Shown: positions 18,017 through 23,118 of the stretch, piece by piece
Layout: the number at the start of each line of letters is the position of its first letter
Numbering within the stretch: position 1 is the first letter of the stretch
Origin: a virus
Length of the DNA stretch: 28,951 bases
Direction: 5' to 3' (one strand)
IMG/VR virus record: IMGVR_UViG_3300024518_000258
Location: 1-28,951 of that record
Program-made: the position numbers and the translations under genes
The notes under the pieces: model-generated
Database searches by the model: none
What the model was told of the DNA's origin: nothing
What the model saw: only the letters and a program-made list of their open reading frames with translations

Positions 18017-18874
18017 TTATACCCCCATTTCTGGAACATCAGGACGCCTACTTACACGAGTGAGATATGTTATACCTTTCTTATATTCAAAGGCTCGTAG
18101 ACCATGACCATTGTTTGCATCAGACCAACAATCCTTTTTATAGGCACAATAAAAACAATTCAATCCTAGTTTATAATTACCTGACTTACCATCTGGTACA
18201 TCAGGATAACATTTAGGTGGTGGAGTTTTAGACTTAACCACACGCTTTAAGTATTTAATTCTTTCTCCTGTATCTGTTATTTCTAATTCATGTAGAGGCA
18301 TTAAACATAATTCACCTGTAAGTTTATTCATAACTAGAAAAGTAGCTTCTCTATCTCCCTCTGCCGTAGCATAGGAAGACAACTGATCTAGATACCCAAA
18401 TGGATCATCAGTATATAAGCTATGATCTTGGAACTTCTTAAAACTTATATGTGATGCAGACTTAACATCTGTTAGTATACCATCTACACGTCCATCAATA
18501 TGTCCCTTTACTCCTTCCAGTTTAGTTTCTTTCTGCCGATCTGTTACTGTATGTCCAGCTAACTCTGATAGACATAATACTAATTCCTCTATGATATGAC
18601 CATACAAGAATTTAATATAGTCATTATCATTAAGAGGTTCCTTTTCTATGTCCTGAAACTGATACCATAATTGTCTATCTGGATGCCCAACATTAGACAT
18701 CCTTAGTTTCTTAGGCTGGATATCTTTACCTGTAACAGCGTTCACTAACTGATCTTTAATGTTAGATAGGCATTGATCTATGATCTCATCCCTCTTCTTA
18801 TTAGATAGGCTACAACCTCCTTCATCTTTAAATAGGTTATAAATATCTGGTATTAATGTATCTATTTTTTTCAT
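18017..18874 (-). CDS. Cas4/RecB-like PD-(D/E)XK exonuclease with Cys cluster
   Basis: The 285-residue protein shows the ordered motifs of this nuclease family: FLYGHIIEELVL (about 89-100, G-x3-E type), VKGHIDGRVDGILTDVKSASHI (122-143) with Asp127, Asp136 and Lys138, then QLSSYA near 164 (Q-x3-Y). The C-terminal Cys222, Cys240, Cys243 and Cys249 (CYPD, CFYCAYKKDC) fit the Fe-S cluster of Cas4- and AddB-like enzymes. It probably processes DNA ends in phage recombination and replication. It is the first gene after the terminator at 18876-18920 and needs read-through or an unseen promoter. The HesB-type carrier is a possible Fe-S source, which is inference. Confidence 0.8.
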   Translation of the reverse strand: MKKIDTLIPDIYNLFKDEGGCSLSNKKRDEIIDQCLSNIKDQLVNAVTGKDIQPKKLRMSNVGHPDRQLWYQFQDIEKEPLNDNDYIKFLYGHIIEELVLCLSELAGHTVTDRQKETKLEGVKGHIDGRVDGILTDVKSASHISFKKFQDHSLYTDDPFGYLDQLSSYATAEGDREATFLVMNKLTGELCLMPLHELEITDTGERIKYLKRVVKSKTPPPKCYPDVPDGKSGNYKLGLNCFYCAYKKDCWSDANNGHGLRAFEYKKGITYLTRVSRRPDVPEMGV

Positions 18875-18875
18875 G

Positions 18876-18920
18876 GTAAAAATAAGGGAGAGTATATAAT
18901 CTAAGGCTATACACTCTCCC
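18876..18920 (-). terminator. Intrinsic terminator after the ssDNA-binding protein gene
   Basis: In the minus-strand transcript a 13-pair stem (GGGAGAGUGUAUA with UAUAUACUCUCCC, one G-U pair) closes a nine-base loop. It is followed directly by UUAUUUUU. It lies 15 bases after the ssDNA-binding protein stop codon. The plus strand has no T-run after the stem, so it works in one direction only. Confidence 0.85.
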
Positions 18921-18935
18921 TCTCCTAGTTAAAGG

Positions 18936-19409
18936 TTAAGCTGAAAAGGGGATGTCTTCAGCTTCATCGGAAGTAAAACCATCAGGGACAACAGCGAATG
19001 CGTCATCCTCTTCGGTTGTGTACGGTACTAATTCGGTCACTTGTACCGCACGTAAATCGGCAGAAACGCCAGTTTTCCCACCGAAATTCCACTCAAAGGG
19101 TTCGTATAAAACATTAACCTTTGAACCATTACCAATCATCGTCTCTGTAATAAGACGCTTGTTAGCGTCCACTACATTAGGCTGACGATTGAGATTACCC
19201 TTGTTGTTACGCACCTTACGTTTGAACGTAACAAAGTCTTCCTTCTCATCACCCTTATTCTTAATCGTAAGCCCATCCTTCTGAGCCTTCTTCTTATTGA
19301 GATCATCCAAGTTCCCAACATCAATAGTCCAGACACCATCGGCATCGAACTTGGTGTTAGGGGAAATGACTGAAGCCCAATAAGACGTACCTGAAATTAC
19401 TTTACTCAC
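18936..19409 (-). CDS. Single-stranded DNA-binding protein, phage type
   Basis: The 157-residue protein has an OB-fold-like N-terminal region (ISGTSYWASVISPNTKFDADGVWTIDVG) and a basic middle part (FVTFKRKVRNNKGNLNRQPNVVDANKR). A further strand region (GSKVNVLYEPFEWNFGG, ADLRAVQVTELV) follows. It ends in an acidic tail with EDIPFSA, similar in plan to T7 gp2.5 and to bacterial SSB tails. It coats ssDNA at the fork and its tail can bind polymerase or helicase. The start is GTG at 19409 with AAGGAG seven bases upstream. It has its own promoter and terminator. Codon use is unusual for the window: Arg codons are mainly CGT and Lys mainly AAG, which suggests high expression. Confidence 0.82.
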   Translation of the reverse strand: MSKVISGTSYWASVISPNTKFDADGVWTIDVGNLDDLNKKKAQKDGLTIKNKGDEKEDFVTFKRKVRNNKGNLNRQPNVVDANKRLITETMIGNGSKVNVLYEPFEWNFGGKTGVSADLRAVQVTELVPYTTEEDDAFAVVPDGFTSDEAEDIPFSA

Positions 19410-19438
19410 TGTGTTTCTCCTTCATAAAGGTTTGCTTG

Positions 19439-19451
19439 ATGATAACATCAT
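19439..19451. promoter_or_regulatory. Palindromic operator candidate at the ssDNA-binding protein promoter
   Basis: ATGATAACATCAT is an inverted repeat with five-base arms around AAC. It overlaps the -10 box of the ssDNA-binding protein promoter and the region just past it. The first eight bases (ATGATAAC) recur at 15133-15140 near the third promoter, which has a similar palindrome. Shared control of the two operons is possible. Confidence 0.35.
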
Positions 19452-19475
19452 ACCAAATTACTATAGGTTTGTCAA
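19447..19475 (-). promoter_or_regulatory. Sigma-70-type promoter (P2)
   Basis: On the minus strand TTGACA (19470-19475) is a perfect -35 and TATGAT (19447-19452) is one base off the -10 consensus, with a 17-base spacer. The -35 overlaps the final codon and stop of the HNH gene. The leader to the GTG at 19409 is about 30 bases and includes the AAGGAG ribosome site. This would start the single-gene transcript that ends at the terminator at 18876-18920. Confidence 0.82.
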
Positions 19476-19948
19476 GTTTTATTTTCTCCTTTCTCATGTT
19501 TCTCTAAAAAATCTAAAGCTCTTCTTATATTAGAAATCTTCTCCTCAAAAAATCCTAGTGCGGAGTTACACTTCCAACATATATAACCTCTAAACTCTCC
19601 TGTATTATGATCATGATCTAATACAAAAGTAGCAGTATATTTTTTCTCTGGTTTACGTTCTGCTAATAAGTCATGTTTACTTTTATGACAGATAGGACAG
19701 AGATAATGTTCTTCAGGTAGAGGATGAATAGTTCTTAAATATTCTACCCTTTTGTTATTTAAATTAACACAGCCATTACATATGTTACCTCGTTGTGATC
19801 CAGAATTATTATTAAATCTTATTTTAAAAGACTTAATAGGTTTTTCTATACCACATTTATGACATACTCTAACTCCATTAGAAGTATCTATAGATCTTTC
19901 ATCTTTAAAAAACTCCAGTTGTTCCTCGTTTAGTGTGTGTCTGCCCAC
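19472..19948 (-). CDS. HNH endonuclease, endonuclease VII-like
   Basis: The C-terminal VLDHDHNTGEFRGYICWKCNSALGFFEE (109-136) is the recombination endonuclease VII signature. The His/Asp cluster 111-115 and Asn128 are the catalytic positions, and CPIC (84-87) with CWKC (124-127) is the zinc site. A second cysteine pair set (Cys29, Cys32, Cys57, Cys60) looks like another zinc motif. It could act as a free-standing homing enzyme or as a resolvase. The start is GTG at 19948. Its first codons overlap, in another frame, a relic of the DNA polymerase 3' end. It is AT-rich and uses AAA and AGA codons much more than the flanking replication genes. Its end overlaps the P2 promoter. Confidence 0.8.
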   Translation of the reverse strand: MGRHTLNEEQLEFFKDERSIDTSNGVRVCHKCGIEKPIKSFKIRFNNNSGSQRGNICNGCVNLNNKRVEYLRTIHPLPEEHYLCPICHKSKHDLLAERKPEKKYTATFVLDHDHNTGEFRGYICWKCNSALGFFEEKISNIRRALDFLEKHEKGENKT

Positions 19949-19966
19949 GTTACACCTACCTTATAC
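19919..19966 (-). pseudogene. Relic copy of the DNA polymerase 3' end
   Basis: Read on the minus strand, 19930-19966 encodes YKVGVTWADTH-stop. The true polymerase end (20202-20238) encodes YKVGSTWADTH-stop. Thirty of 37 bases match, and the changes are at third codon positions except for one Ser-to-Val codon. Similarity continues 11 bases past the stop, into the region that carries a Shine-Dalgarno in the true copy (AGGAGG versus ACGAGG). It is embedded in the 5' end of the HNH gene in a different frame. The pattern shows that it once was coding. Confidence 0.82.
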
Positions 19967-20189
19967 AAGGTATTTCAGGATCATTTATACACGCAGGATA
20001 ATGTAGGTGTGCTAAATGTTTTATCTCTAGTATTTCATCAGCATCGTATGTAGTACCATCATAGTAAACACATCCAAACTGTAATTGATTAGTTGAAAAC
20101 TTATTAGAAACTATCTTTTCAGCTTCTTCTTTAGAGGTAGCTCTAATTATTAGACTATCTACTGATACACTGTAATATTTCTTAACCAT
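19956..20189 (-). CDS. Small protein of unknown function, 77 aa
   Basis: A strong AAAGGAGG lies seven bases before the ATG and only two codons separate it from the polymerase stop. The protein has a beta-type start (KKYYSVSVDSLIIRATSKEEAEKIVSNKF) that resembles small phage proteins with an alternating strand-helix opening. A Tyr/Asp/His-rich second half (YYDGTTYDADEILEIKHLAHLHYPAC) follows. Its end overlaps the polymerase relic, and the whole gene lies between the two copies of the polymerase end. It could be a cargo gene carried by the same recombination event. Function is unknown. Confidence 0.58.
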   Translation of the reverse strand: MVKKYYSVSVDSLIIRATSKEEAEKIVSNKFSTNQLQFGCVYYDGTTYDADEILEIKHLAHLHYPACINDPEIPCIR

Positions 20190-20190
20190 A

Positions 20191-20238
20191 TTATACCTCC
20201 TTTAATGAGTGTCAGCCCATGTTGAACCCACCTTATAC
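20191..20238 (-). repeat. Intact partner copy of the polymerase-end repeat
   Basis: This is the last 11 sense codons of DNA polymerase, its stop and the Shine-Dalgarno of the next gene. It aligns with 19919-19966 at 38 of 48 bases with no gaps, 272 bases away in the same orientation. The two copies flank the 77-residue gene. It is listed as a repeat because it marks the insertion boundary. Confidence 0.8.
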
Positions 20239-21842
20239 TCATTATCAAGTGGGCATTTAATATTAAATATTTCTTCTGTCTCCTTCATAGCCTTCTTAGT
20301 TATGGAACCAAACTCTTCTATATCTTTTTTATGTACCTCAAACTGGTACTCATCGTGGATAGATGCTACTAACTTTACATCCAGGTTCTCCGAATGTTTC
20401 ATCATCTGAACTAACCACTGCTTACAGATGATTGCACCTGCACCCTGAATAAGAGTATTCAAAGCTGAATGAAAACTTCTGATATGTAACTTCCTACCAT
20501 CTAGACCAGTGATAAGTTTCTTCTTAGCAGCTATGTCTATTCTAGTACGTAGTTGTTTTAAAGCAGGGACATTCCTCAAAAAATTATCTATAAGTTTCTG
20601 TCCATCAGTAGCCTTAACACCAGCTACCTTACCTATCTTCTCTGCACCAGCCCCATAAATTAAGGCGTACAGGAAGGTCTTTGCTTGATCTCTAGTCTTG
20701 AGGTTAGCCATGCGTTGATTGGCACTGTGGATATCACCTCCAATAACTTCCTTAATGTAGTCTTTATCTCCCATGTAGTGGGCTAGTGCTCTGATCTCTA
20801 AGCCTGACGCATCCGTTCCAACTAACTGATAGTTCTCTGGATCAGATACCGTCCAACATGAACGACACTCCTTACCATAGGGAGAGTATACGGCTGGTAC
20901 TTGTGCCATGTTAGGGCTGTTGTGTGCCATACGTCCTGTAATAGTACGTAGGGTCATCACCCTACCATGTACTCTACCATTAATATCAACAGCTTCAATC
21001 CACTGCTTGATCTGTGATACTCTCTTCTGTAAGAGAAGATAACGTGCCATTAGTTTTGCTTCAGGAAAGTTTAAGCTCTCTAGTATATCATCACTAACAG
21101 CTATGTTACCCTTGTCTGTCTTTAACTTAGGCTTCCATCCCTTCTCTACTAACCTTTCTGCTATCTGCTTACGTGAAGCAGGGTTGAAGGGGATGGACTT
21201 GGTTTTAGTTTTTAGTTGTACTATTGTAGGTGGAAATACCTCCTGTAGTTTATCTTCAATCTCTGTAGCCTCATCCTGAAATCTATTCATCAGGATCATA
21301 GCCTGTTGTGCATCTAAGTAGAAACCATTTTCTTCTTGTTTATCAATGAGATAACGTATCTTATGTTCAAGTTTAATAGACTGAGGTGAGAAGTCTTTAC
21401 CCTCTCCTGTAAGTCTACGTAATAATTTATATGTAACATCAACATCAAGGTTACAGTAGGCTAACATCTCCTGTGTATAGGTGGAGAAGTCTGTCAGTGT
21501 TCCTTTAGGAAATCCTAACCTATCTCCCCACGCTGCTAATGAGTGTCCCTTATCTCTGATAGGATTAAATAGTTGAGATAGGATCAGAGTATCAACTATC
21601 TTATCCATAGGTAGATTAGCATCAGTTAGTTTATTAATAATCCTTCCATCAAAAGATATACCGTTGTGCATATAGAATTTATCTATAGTCTTAGACCACT
21701 GAGGAAACTTAGTATAACATTCTTCTTGTATAAACTCTGTGACCTCATCAGTCTTAACATCTCTAGCTACCATACAGTGTATCTGTGTAGCATCCAGAGC
21801 ATCAGTCTCTATATCAAGTACTACTCCCTTGCTCATTGTCAT
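20202..21842 (-). CDS. Family A DNA polymerase with 3'-5' exonuclease
   Basis: The start at 21842 (MTMSKGVVLDIETD) has a GGAG nine bases upstream; a longer open frame upstream is not supported. It replicates phage DNA. Exonuclease motifs: Asp10-Ile-Glu12, Asn60-x4-Asp65 and YCNLD near 129-133. Polymerase motifs: GTDASGLEIRALAHYMGD with Asp344 (A), RDQAKTFLYALIYGAG with Arg384, Lys388 and Tyr396 (B), and SIHDEYQFEV with His496-Asp-Glu498 (C). Tyr392 stands at the E. coli Pol I Phe762 position. The 546-residue length lacks a 5'-3' exonuclease domain, as in T7-type enzymes. HNH genes lie on both sides. Confidence 0.93.
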   Translation of the reverse strand: MTMSKGVVLDIETDALDATQIHCMVARDVKTDEVTEFIQEECYTKFPQWSKTIDKFYMHNGISFDGRIINKLTDANLPMDKIVDTLILSQLFNPIRDKGHSLAAWGDRLGFPKGTLTDFSTYTQEMLAYCNLDVDVTYKLLRRLTGEGKDFSPQSIKLEHKIRYLIDKQEENGFYLDAQQAMILMNRFQDEATEIEDKLQEVFPPTIVQLKTKTKSIPFNPASRKQIAERLVEKGWKPKLKTDKGNIAVSDDILESLNFPEAKLMARYLLLQKRVSQIKQWIEAVDINGRVHGRVMTLRTITGRMAHNSPNMAQVPAVYSPYGKECRSCWTVSDPENYQLVGTDASGLEIRALAHYMGDKDYIKEVIGGDIHSANQRMANLKTRDQAKTFLYALIYGAGAEKIGKVAGVKATDGQKLIDNFLRNVPALKQLRTRIDIAAKKKLITGLDGRKLHIRSFHSALNTLIQGAGAIICKQWLVQMMKHSENLDVKLVASIHDEYQFEVHKKDIEEFGSITKKAMKETEEIFNIKCPLDNEYKVGSTWADTH

Positions 21843-22089
21843 AGACCCATTCTCCTTTATAATACAAACCATCCCAATCATCTTCCCAATACTCAACATG
21901 ATCAGGATCACTCTTTAGTATCCTCACTGGCTGTATACATAAGTGAGGATCACCACAACAACTCCCATCATCTCTTGGACATAAAGGAACTTCTTCTTCG
22001 TATATATATTTTTTACTCCTACTCTTTCTTCTTATTACTGACCATCTTTCTCTCATTAATTCTTCTGGTGTTCTCCAATCATAACTCAT
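21814..22089 (-). CDS. Cys-rich small protein of unknown function, 91 aa
   Basis: The N-terminal third is basic (RTPEELMRERWSVIRRKSRSKK). The middle holds CPRDDGSCCGDPHLC (Cys37, Cys44, Cys45, Cys51), a possible metal or disulphide cluster. The C-terminal third is acidic and aromatic (HVEYWEDDWDGLYYKGEWVYD). The charge split and the Cys cluster suggest a real product. It overlaps the HNH gene end by 11 bases and the polymerase start by 29. No family is recognised. Lying between an HNH gene and polymerase, it may be part of an inserted segment. Confidence 0.5.
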   Translation of the reverse strand: MSYDWRTPEELMRERWSVIRRKSRSKKYIYEEEVPLCPRDDGSCCGDPHLCIQPVRILKSDPDHVEYWEDDWDGLYYKGEWVYDNEQGSST

Positions 22090-22453
22090 CTAAATCTCCT
22101 CTCAGTCGAGCATGTTCTATGCGGTGACAATTAGCACAGAGCATTAAACATTTATCTATTTCTTTTAATAAGTTTTCACGAGTACGTAAGTAAGGTATCT
22201 TCCTATCTAATGCCAGACCAATTTCAAAATCTTTTTTAGTCGGATCAGGATGGTGAAATTCATACACCCCATCATAAGTATATGAAACACTACAATGTTC
22301 ACATTTCCCCCCTTTATATTTTACTAAATCAGCTTTTAACTTTTGCCTACGTTGTGTTCTCCTTGGAGTACCTATTTCTCTCTCGTATTTTAGTTTCTTC
22401 TCCCTATTTTTTTTATAATATTCTAAATCATATTCCCTTCTAGAATAAGCCAT
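22079..22453 (-). CDS. HNH endonuclease (classical Cys-His-Cys type)
   Basis: The 124-residue protein has a highly basic, Arg/Lys-rich N-terminus (about 1-45) for DNA contact. The HNH core follows: GGKCEHCSVSYTYDGVYEFHHPDP (48-71) with zinc Cys51 and Cys54 and His67-His68, then KCLMLCANCHRIEHARL (101-117) with Cys106, Cys109 and His110. It is probably a homing-type nuclease. It begins three bases after the ThyX stop and overlaps the next gene by 11 bases. The first 20 codons are very AT-rich and A-biased compared with ThyX and polymerase, which suggests later arrival. Confidence 0.8.
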   Translation of the reverse strand: MAYSRREYDLEYYKKNREKKLKYEREIGTPRRTQRRQKLKADLVKYKGGKCEHCSVSYTYDGVYEFHHPDPTKKDFEIGLALDRKIPYLRTRENLLKEIDKCLMLCANCHRIEHARLRGDLDEL

Positions 22454-22455
22454 AA

Positions 22456-23118
22456 CTATTCTTCAACTCTATGAGTTAGAGCTTCCCAAGATATAGGAAA
22501 TAATTCGTGGACCTGTTCTGAAATTTGATTAGCCACTTGTCTAGTCTCCCATTGTGTATCTTCTTTACACCTAAGATTACATACTCTAGCAAAGGCAGCA
22601 AGACTACCACTCCAATACCATTCAGTGTACATATTCTGGGGCAGTACCATCCTTGCTTGTTCAGGACACACGCCCATTTTTAACATATTTTTATAGCATT
22701 GTAAAGTATAATCTATAACAGGTTTTAAAATATAGGATAGTGTATCCTCACTATCGCTACCCTGCTTAATATTATCTGCCTTCTTTCTAAAATATTTAGG
22801 TGTATAGAACTCAGGCTCAGTATCTACATATCTACGTGATACCTCATTCCATACTAAACCAACCTGATGCTTTACTAATTGTCTTGCTACAAATATCGGT
22901 GCTTTAATATGAAACTGTAATGATGCATGTCCAAAGGGACTCCAATGATTATGCTTTGCTAAGAACTTAATTAGCTTTTCATCCCCTATCTTTAGGTATC
23001 CCTTGACCTGCCCCCCTTCTGGTATGGAATCCCATTCAGAAACTTTAGCAAAAGATACACGGGCTGCATTCACTACAGATAGATCACTACCCATATGGTC
23101 TATTAATATAGCCTTCAT
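22456..23118 (-). CDS. thyX: Flavin-dependent thymidylate synthase
   Basis: The 220-residue protein converts dUMP to dTMP with methylenetetrahydrofolate and FAD for phage DNA. The family pattern is present: HWSPFGHASLQFHIKAPIFVARQLVKHQVGLVWNEVSRRYVD (58-99), and later ARMVLPQNMYTEWYWSGSLAAFARVCNLR. The signature usually written RHRxxSxNExSxRY reads KHQVGLVWNEVSRRY here: Lys83 and Gln85 in place of the two Arg, and one residue longer before Asn91. AGGAGAG lies close before the ATG at 23118. The start lies 32 bases inside the upstream gene. It works with RNR to supply dNTPs. Confidence 0.92.
   Translation of the reverse strand: MKAILIDHMGSDLSVVNAARVSFAKVSEWDSIPEGGQVKGYLKIGDEKLIKFLAKHNHWSPFGHASLQFHIKAPIFVARQLVKHQVGLVWNEVSRRYVDTEPEFYTPKYFRKKADNIKQGSDSEDTLSYILKPVIDYTLQCYKNMLKMGVCPEQARMVLPQNMYTEWYWSGSLAAFARVCNLRCKEDTQWETRQVANQISEQVHELFPISWEALTHRVEE

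Follow-up and report, generated by a model that had tools for sequence, protein, structure and literature searches.

In this analysis we ask why a viral genome carries the last codons of its DNA polymerase gene twice, with another gene between the copies. The window, that is the whole stretch of 28,951 nucleotides analysed (IMG/VR record IMGVR_UViG_3300024518_000258), has pelagiphages as its nearest isolates, with a polymerase identity of about 50%; relatives are designated below by locus numbers. The family A DNA polymerase gene (20202..21911, minus strand; Pfam PF00476, E 2e-53) closes with YKVGSTWADTH*, its working 3' end (tail 1, 20202..20237, minus strand), and this end (20202-20238) is repeated on the minus strand at 19930-19966, where the second copy (tail 2, 19930..19965) reads YKVGVTWADTH*. 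Between the polymerase and an endonuclease VII-type HNH gene (19472..19948, minus strand) lies a gene of 77 residues (19956..20189, minus strand), which is preceded by a Shine-Dalgarno sequence and leader common to L004, AAAGGAGG (20190..20203, minus strand), and whose TAG stop (19956-19958) also falls within tail 2. Past the HNH gene comes a resident flank (19410..19475, minus strand) with GAAAGGAGAAAATAAAACTTGAC as in L060, L077 and L002, and with a promoter-like TTGACA..TATGAT before the ssDNA-binding protein gene.

Compared without gaps on the minus strand, 20238..20191 and 19966..19919 are identical at 38 of 48 bases, and similarity drops to background beyond both limits. This agrees with an earlier reading made from the letters alone (the sequence-only reading). 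The next-best place in the window for the tail gives 25/48, and 200 Markov-1 random windows of the same size and neighbour statistics, searched on both strands, gave at best 32/48. A chance resemblance or an assembly error, for which the short length of the match speaks and nothing else, is already refuted by this control and by the occurrence of the 77-residue gene between two polymerase tails in three separate assemblies.

The two tails differ at 7 of 36 bases, and six of the twelve codons are changed, five of them synonymously and one from Ser to Val, as had been noted beforehand. Were they a target-site duplication or a recent tandem duplication, the tails would once have been identical and made when the 77-residue gene was inserted; the 27 identical bases that the two tails of L004 have in common would suit such an origin. 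In the window, however, the 7/36 differences stand beside a gene whose DNA is 94% identical to that of L004, and tail 2 is closer to the L009 tail (31/36) than to tail 1 and is continuous with the HNH gene. For the window this origin is already disfavoured and we consider it very improbable, in line with the claim of the sequence-only reading that the duplication is not a fresh tandem one.

The same reading had taken the second copy for a piece of a diverged polymerase allele tied to the HNH gene, and comparison with relatives agrees. The HNH product is of the endonuclease VII type (Pfam PF02945, E 1.3e-16), its D-H-H-R-N motif is intact (LDHDHNTGEFRGYICWKCN, residues 110-128) and its nearest solved structure is Hpy99I (E 4.1e-8). 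A close ortholog was found in L009 only; in other lineages the position is taken by more distant endonuclease VII genes. The L009 polymerase is directly followed by the HNH gene, whose start lies within the final polymerase codons, 18 bases ahead of the stop; the earlier reading had asked for relatives arranged in this way. The window and L009 are homologous without interruption from TATAARGTAGGTGTAAC to and through the HNH gene, so tail 2 is the polymerase tail that belongs with HNH. The GTG start of HNH (19948) lies within tail 2 in another frame, as previously pointed out, with the Shine-Dalgarno-like AAGGTAGG six bases ahead of it. Endonuclease VII genes also start at the -18 codon in L019, L108, L111, L117, L123 and L125, and other genes do likewise: in the 249 loci with enough downstream sequence, open reading frames of at least 70 codons start at -18 in 89 and at -13 in 72, these being counts of frames and not of proven genes. 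Because the tail in which HNH genes start is the real polymerase end in L009 and in several further lineages, the alignments identify tail 2 as the ancestral start region of HNH. As predicted ribosome site and first codons of that gene, the copy is not dead sequence, and the word relic, by which it had been described, does not fit it. Annotators should be aware that a supposed relic of this kind can turn out to be where a gene starts.

The HNH gene is optional between conserved genes, since the site is filled in L009 and empty in L007, L008 and L005, with flanks about 81-93% identical. At the empty sites (L005, L007, L008, L015) a hairpin and then the gene for the ssDNA-binding protein follow the polymerase directly. 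The hairpin has a stem of ~18 bases and begins directly past the polymerase stop (L005 4304-4351; also L007, L008 and L015); in L004 and L009 it lies beyond the insert, and the window lacks it.

The pair L009 and L007 gives the clearest view of what an insertion leaves behind. Identity between filled L009 and empty L007 is 90% and 93% on either side of the insert. The last ~180 polymerase bases of L009 are 73-83% identical to L007, against 87-98% further up, and on this comparison the stretch looks like a conversion tract; it is clear in this pair only, other pairs having small dips. On the 3' side of the L009 HNH gene, AAAGTCGGCACTACA-CGGCTGAAACAGACTAACATATATCTCTTAG corresponds to a resident tail and flank of the L007/L008 type, that is, to a displaced native end. 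Its alignment score is 75 and the maximum in shuffled searches was 41; one base is deleted in the displaced tail. When second tails were sought without gaps, only carriers of the 77-residue gene came up, and a gapped scan added L009 and several more. The polymerase tail of L009 is unlike that of L007, and the tail of L004 is unlike that of L005, so that a foreign C-terminal end has been joined in frame in each. No relative combining an empty site with tail 2 was found for the window. Beyond the same CATGAGAAA at the right end of HNH the window enters an L060-type flank and L009 a displaced tail.

The 77-residue gene was found in L004, L006, L079 and the window only. In the three relatives a polymerase tail stands on either side of it and HNH was not seen, though for L006 this absence is limited by a contig that ends soon past the second tail. 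At the DNA level the gene of the window is 94% identical to those of the three, and the flanking third of the polymerase gene about 83%. The protein had no Pfam family match and no relative among phage isolates, its best PHROGs hit reached only E 0.06, and its predicted structure (pLDDT 56) was too poor for a fold search; it is not recognisable as a nuclease. Relatives without the gene, for which the sequence-only reading had also asked, were found too. One of these, L005, matches L004 at 100% in the roughly 160 polymerase bases that precede the tail and at 96-100% from the hairpin through the ssb gene, and because the two are nearly identical on both sides, the borders of the cassette lie within the two tails. 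Both L004 tails have GGTTCAAC in common, which L005 lacks. The window and L004 share the junction CCTTG/TATAAGRTAGG, after which each continues with its own resident sequence; this fits a single original junction that may later have been spread by recombination inside the tail.

How the two genes came together in the window can be read in two ways. In the first, close to the sequence-only reading, a single block of 77-residue gene, foreign tail and HNH gene was inserted just past the resident polymerase stop, tail 1 being resident and tail 2 foreign. Tail 1 of the window matches the tail of L060, an empty site, at 33/36, the last 100 polymerase bases are 95-97% identical to L060, L077 and L002, and the flank past HNH matches these three as well. 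Nevertheless, tail 1 is equally close (33/36) to L004, a carrier of the 77-residue gene, and it shares GGGTTCAAC with the carriers of that gene and not with L060, its resemblance to L060, L077 and L002 being broken at TTC. Moreover, the two genes are separate in all other carriers found, and because they occur separately elsewhere the comparison favours two steps, with the 77-residue gene as a probable separate arrival; we hold the single block to be unlikely. Of the cassette from a related phage that had been proposed, the part concerning an HNH gene accompanied by a polymerase tail stands, and the part including the 77-residue gene probably does not, as this has its own tail pair in three contigs in which HNH was not seen.

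The polymerase 3' end turned out to be a general insertion hotspot, which the sequence-only reading had not foreseen. In an all-against-all comparison of 259 distinct loci, which are not independent events, 34 proved to have an insert at the polymerase stop when set against a relative whose flanks are 81-99% identical. The first 100-base bin after the stop held insertions in 34/256 loci and the next-best bin in 13/219, which makes the polymerase stop the strongest insertion point across the 259 loci. The 34 inserts form eight sequence clusters: endonuclease VII (17 loci), T5orf172 (6 loci), a 102-residue gene heading a two-gene unit (4 loci), a PDDEXK_5-like (PD-(D/E)XK-like) gene below the Pfam cut-off (3 loci) and four single cases, one of them the 77-residue gene. 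A stepwise series is formed by L057 (polymerase, nuclease-like gene), L059 (polymerase, HNH, nuclease-like gene) and L062 (polymerase, 72 aa gene, HNH), with about 16 bases around the stop repeated per step. The HNH-like gene of this series has no Pfam match, and the layout of L062 is that of the window, a small gene followed by an HNH-like gene with its tail-derived start kept.

Several further arrangements were seen at this site. A T5orf172 (GIY-YIG-like) gene occurs at the polymerase stop of L221, L240, L251, L256, L259 and L260, with its start at -13 in the tail. The two-gene unit (102 + 206 codons) lies at the polymerase stop of L044, L045, L046, L048 and L136, as compared with L070; the L046 pair has no Pfam match, and the 206-codon gene closes with a displaced polymerase tail, which it reads in the polymerase frame. 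L107 and L124 have a 234-codon frame beginning MGRNTLIIFYSLIFF from -18 in the polymerase tail, apparently a membrane or exported protein and not a nuclease. In the cyanophages L180 (S-CBP2) and L181 (7B11-B) an endonuclease VII-type frame overlaps the polymerase end, and in S-CBP2 this frame has no annotated gene of its own.

Tail stretches of 13-37 bases are often duplicated at the inserts at the polymerase stop. Overlaps of at least 10 bases accompany 21/34 insertions there and 26/76 elsewhere in these loci, so short repeats alone prove nothing; the longer repeats, the location and the filled and empty pairs carry the argument. The main rival for the mechanism dispenses with an endonuclease: phage genomes would be joined at random everywhere, and the survivors would be those that keep the polymerase and the start of the next gene, leaving short duplications of the tail. 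Overlaps at insertion borders elsewhere are what it would predict, and the displaced genes do mostly retain a tail-derived start. Most inserts, however, are nuclease genes, of several families and at one site; no gene starts at the displaced tails of L009 and L004, which selection for a start codon therefore cannot explain; and L009 has its apparent conversion tract. We regard this selection-only explanation as quite unlikely.

For the observed duplication, the link of tail 2 with HNH, the separate 77-residue gene, the filled and empty sites of near relatives and the hotspot, we favour, at a probability of roughly two in three, serial arrivals at a homing hotspot, primed by polymerase homology and joined to a remnant of the recipient's tail. 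HNH or another endonuclease would cut the recipient within or close to its polymerase 3' end, and the break would be repaired on the left through homology with the donor polymerase. On the right it would be closed by end joining to the remaining recipient tail or by a crossover inside the tail, a step supported by the divergence of the window and L009 past CATGAGAAA. The arriving gene, usually an endonuclease, would thus bring a short donor polymerase 3' end to take the place of the recipient's in frame, and the codons with which the recipient gene had ended would come to lie downstream of the new gene. Because genes here often start inside the tail, a later arrival would move an earlier gene with its ribosome site and start codon intact. 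In the window, tail 2 and HNH would have come first, arranged as in L009, and the 77-residue gene would then have entered between, bringing its own tail. Against these serial arrivals speak the L060/L077/L002-like character of tail 1, of the last 100 polymerase bases and of the flank past HNH; a 77-residue gene that does not look like a nuclease; overlaps of at least 10 bases also at insertions elsewhere; and a conversion tract that is clear in one pair.

The nearest parallel to serial arrivals comes from fungal mitochondria. Mobile ORFs in Allomyces macrogynus atp6 and in Glomus atp6, atp9, cox2 and nad3 combine a foreign C-terminal end in frame, a mobile gene and a displaced native end, with mostly synonymous differences between the ends (PMC3630166). 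L009 has the same order of foreign end, mobile gene and displaced native end, and the gene between the two ends is an endonuclease there, as it is in L059 if its HNH-like gene without a Pfam match is counted. Unlike the fungal elements, ours lie in phage DNA, their duplicated ends measure 13-37 bases as against about 50-300, the next gene often starts in the displaced tail, and in the window it is the 77-residue gene, not the nuclease, that the tails enclose, HNH lying beyond.

Among phages, seg and mob of T4 are free-standing homing endonucleases, optional and located at the borders of essential genes, and in segC, segF, mobA and mobC there is an overlap of 11-24 bases with the ORF upstream (PMC2988022), which is a precedent for genes starting inside the polymerase tail. 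Searched by terms, that review did not mention duplication, and in contrast to T4 several nuclease families share here one landing site at the polymerase stop. F-CphI of cyanophage S-PM2 is a DHHRN homing endonuclease, free-standing beside its target, in a 'collaborative homing' whose partner is a group I intron in psbA and in which insertion near the target protects it (PMC6083498). The window HNH has the same catalytic motif, but its target can only be surmised and no intron accompanies it: a group I intron in the polymerase was rejected, as Rfam gave no match in 18800-22500 and the polymerase frame is closed by tail 1. An integrase-mediated element was rejected too, the inserted segment having no integrase and only the 77-residue unknown and the HNH nuclease. 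Homing endonuclease genes (HEGs) beside DNA polymerase and other essential genes have been described as marking recombination borders, with T5orf172 and IPA-HNH genes bordering large islands (PMC10448857); unlike here, exchange of a gene's last codons is not described there. In the literature searched, of which coverage was partial, a duplicated gene end did not come up for any phage. The feature is real and explained, as a form of the known phage homing-gene theme with the fungal tail-exchange layout.

More tentatively, and with less than even confidence, we suggest that the polymerase 3' end may be a gene-capture site in marine phages. A substitute ending would act as homology arm and its last codons be recycled as ribosome site and start codon, the newest gene coming to lie beside the polymerase, so that non-nuclease genes (of 77 or 72 residues) could move as passengers of nearby nucleases. 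If true, this would explain how unrelated genes collect behind an essential gene and yet leave it and its neighbour intact, and would extend to phages the fungal mitochondrial layout. With several nuclease families at one site and both filled and empty relatives, the choice of insertion points by nucleases becomes testable, as does the movement of small non-nuclease genes with homing nucleases.

A second HNH gene lies upstream of the polymerase in the window (22079-22453, minus strand; PHROG 3106, E 1.2e-22). It is optional among relatives, so that optional HNH genes occur on both sides of the polymerase region.
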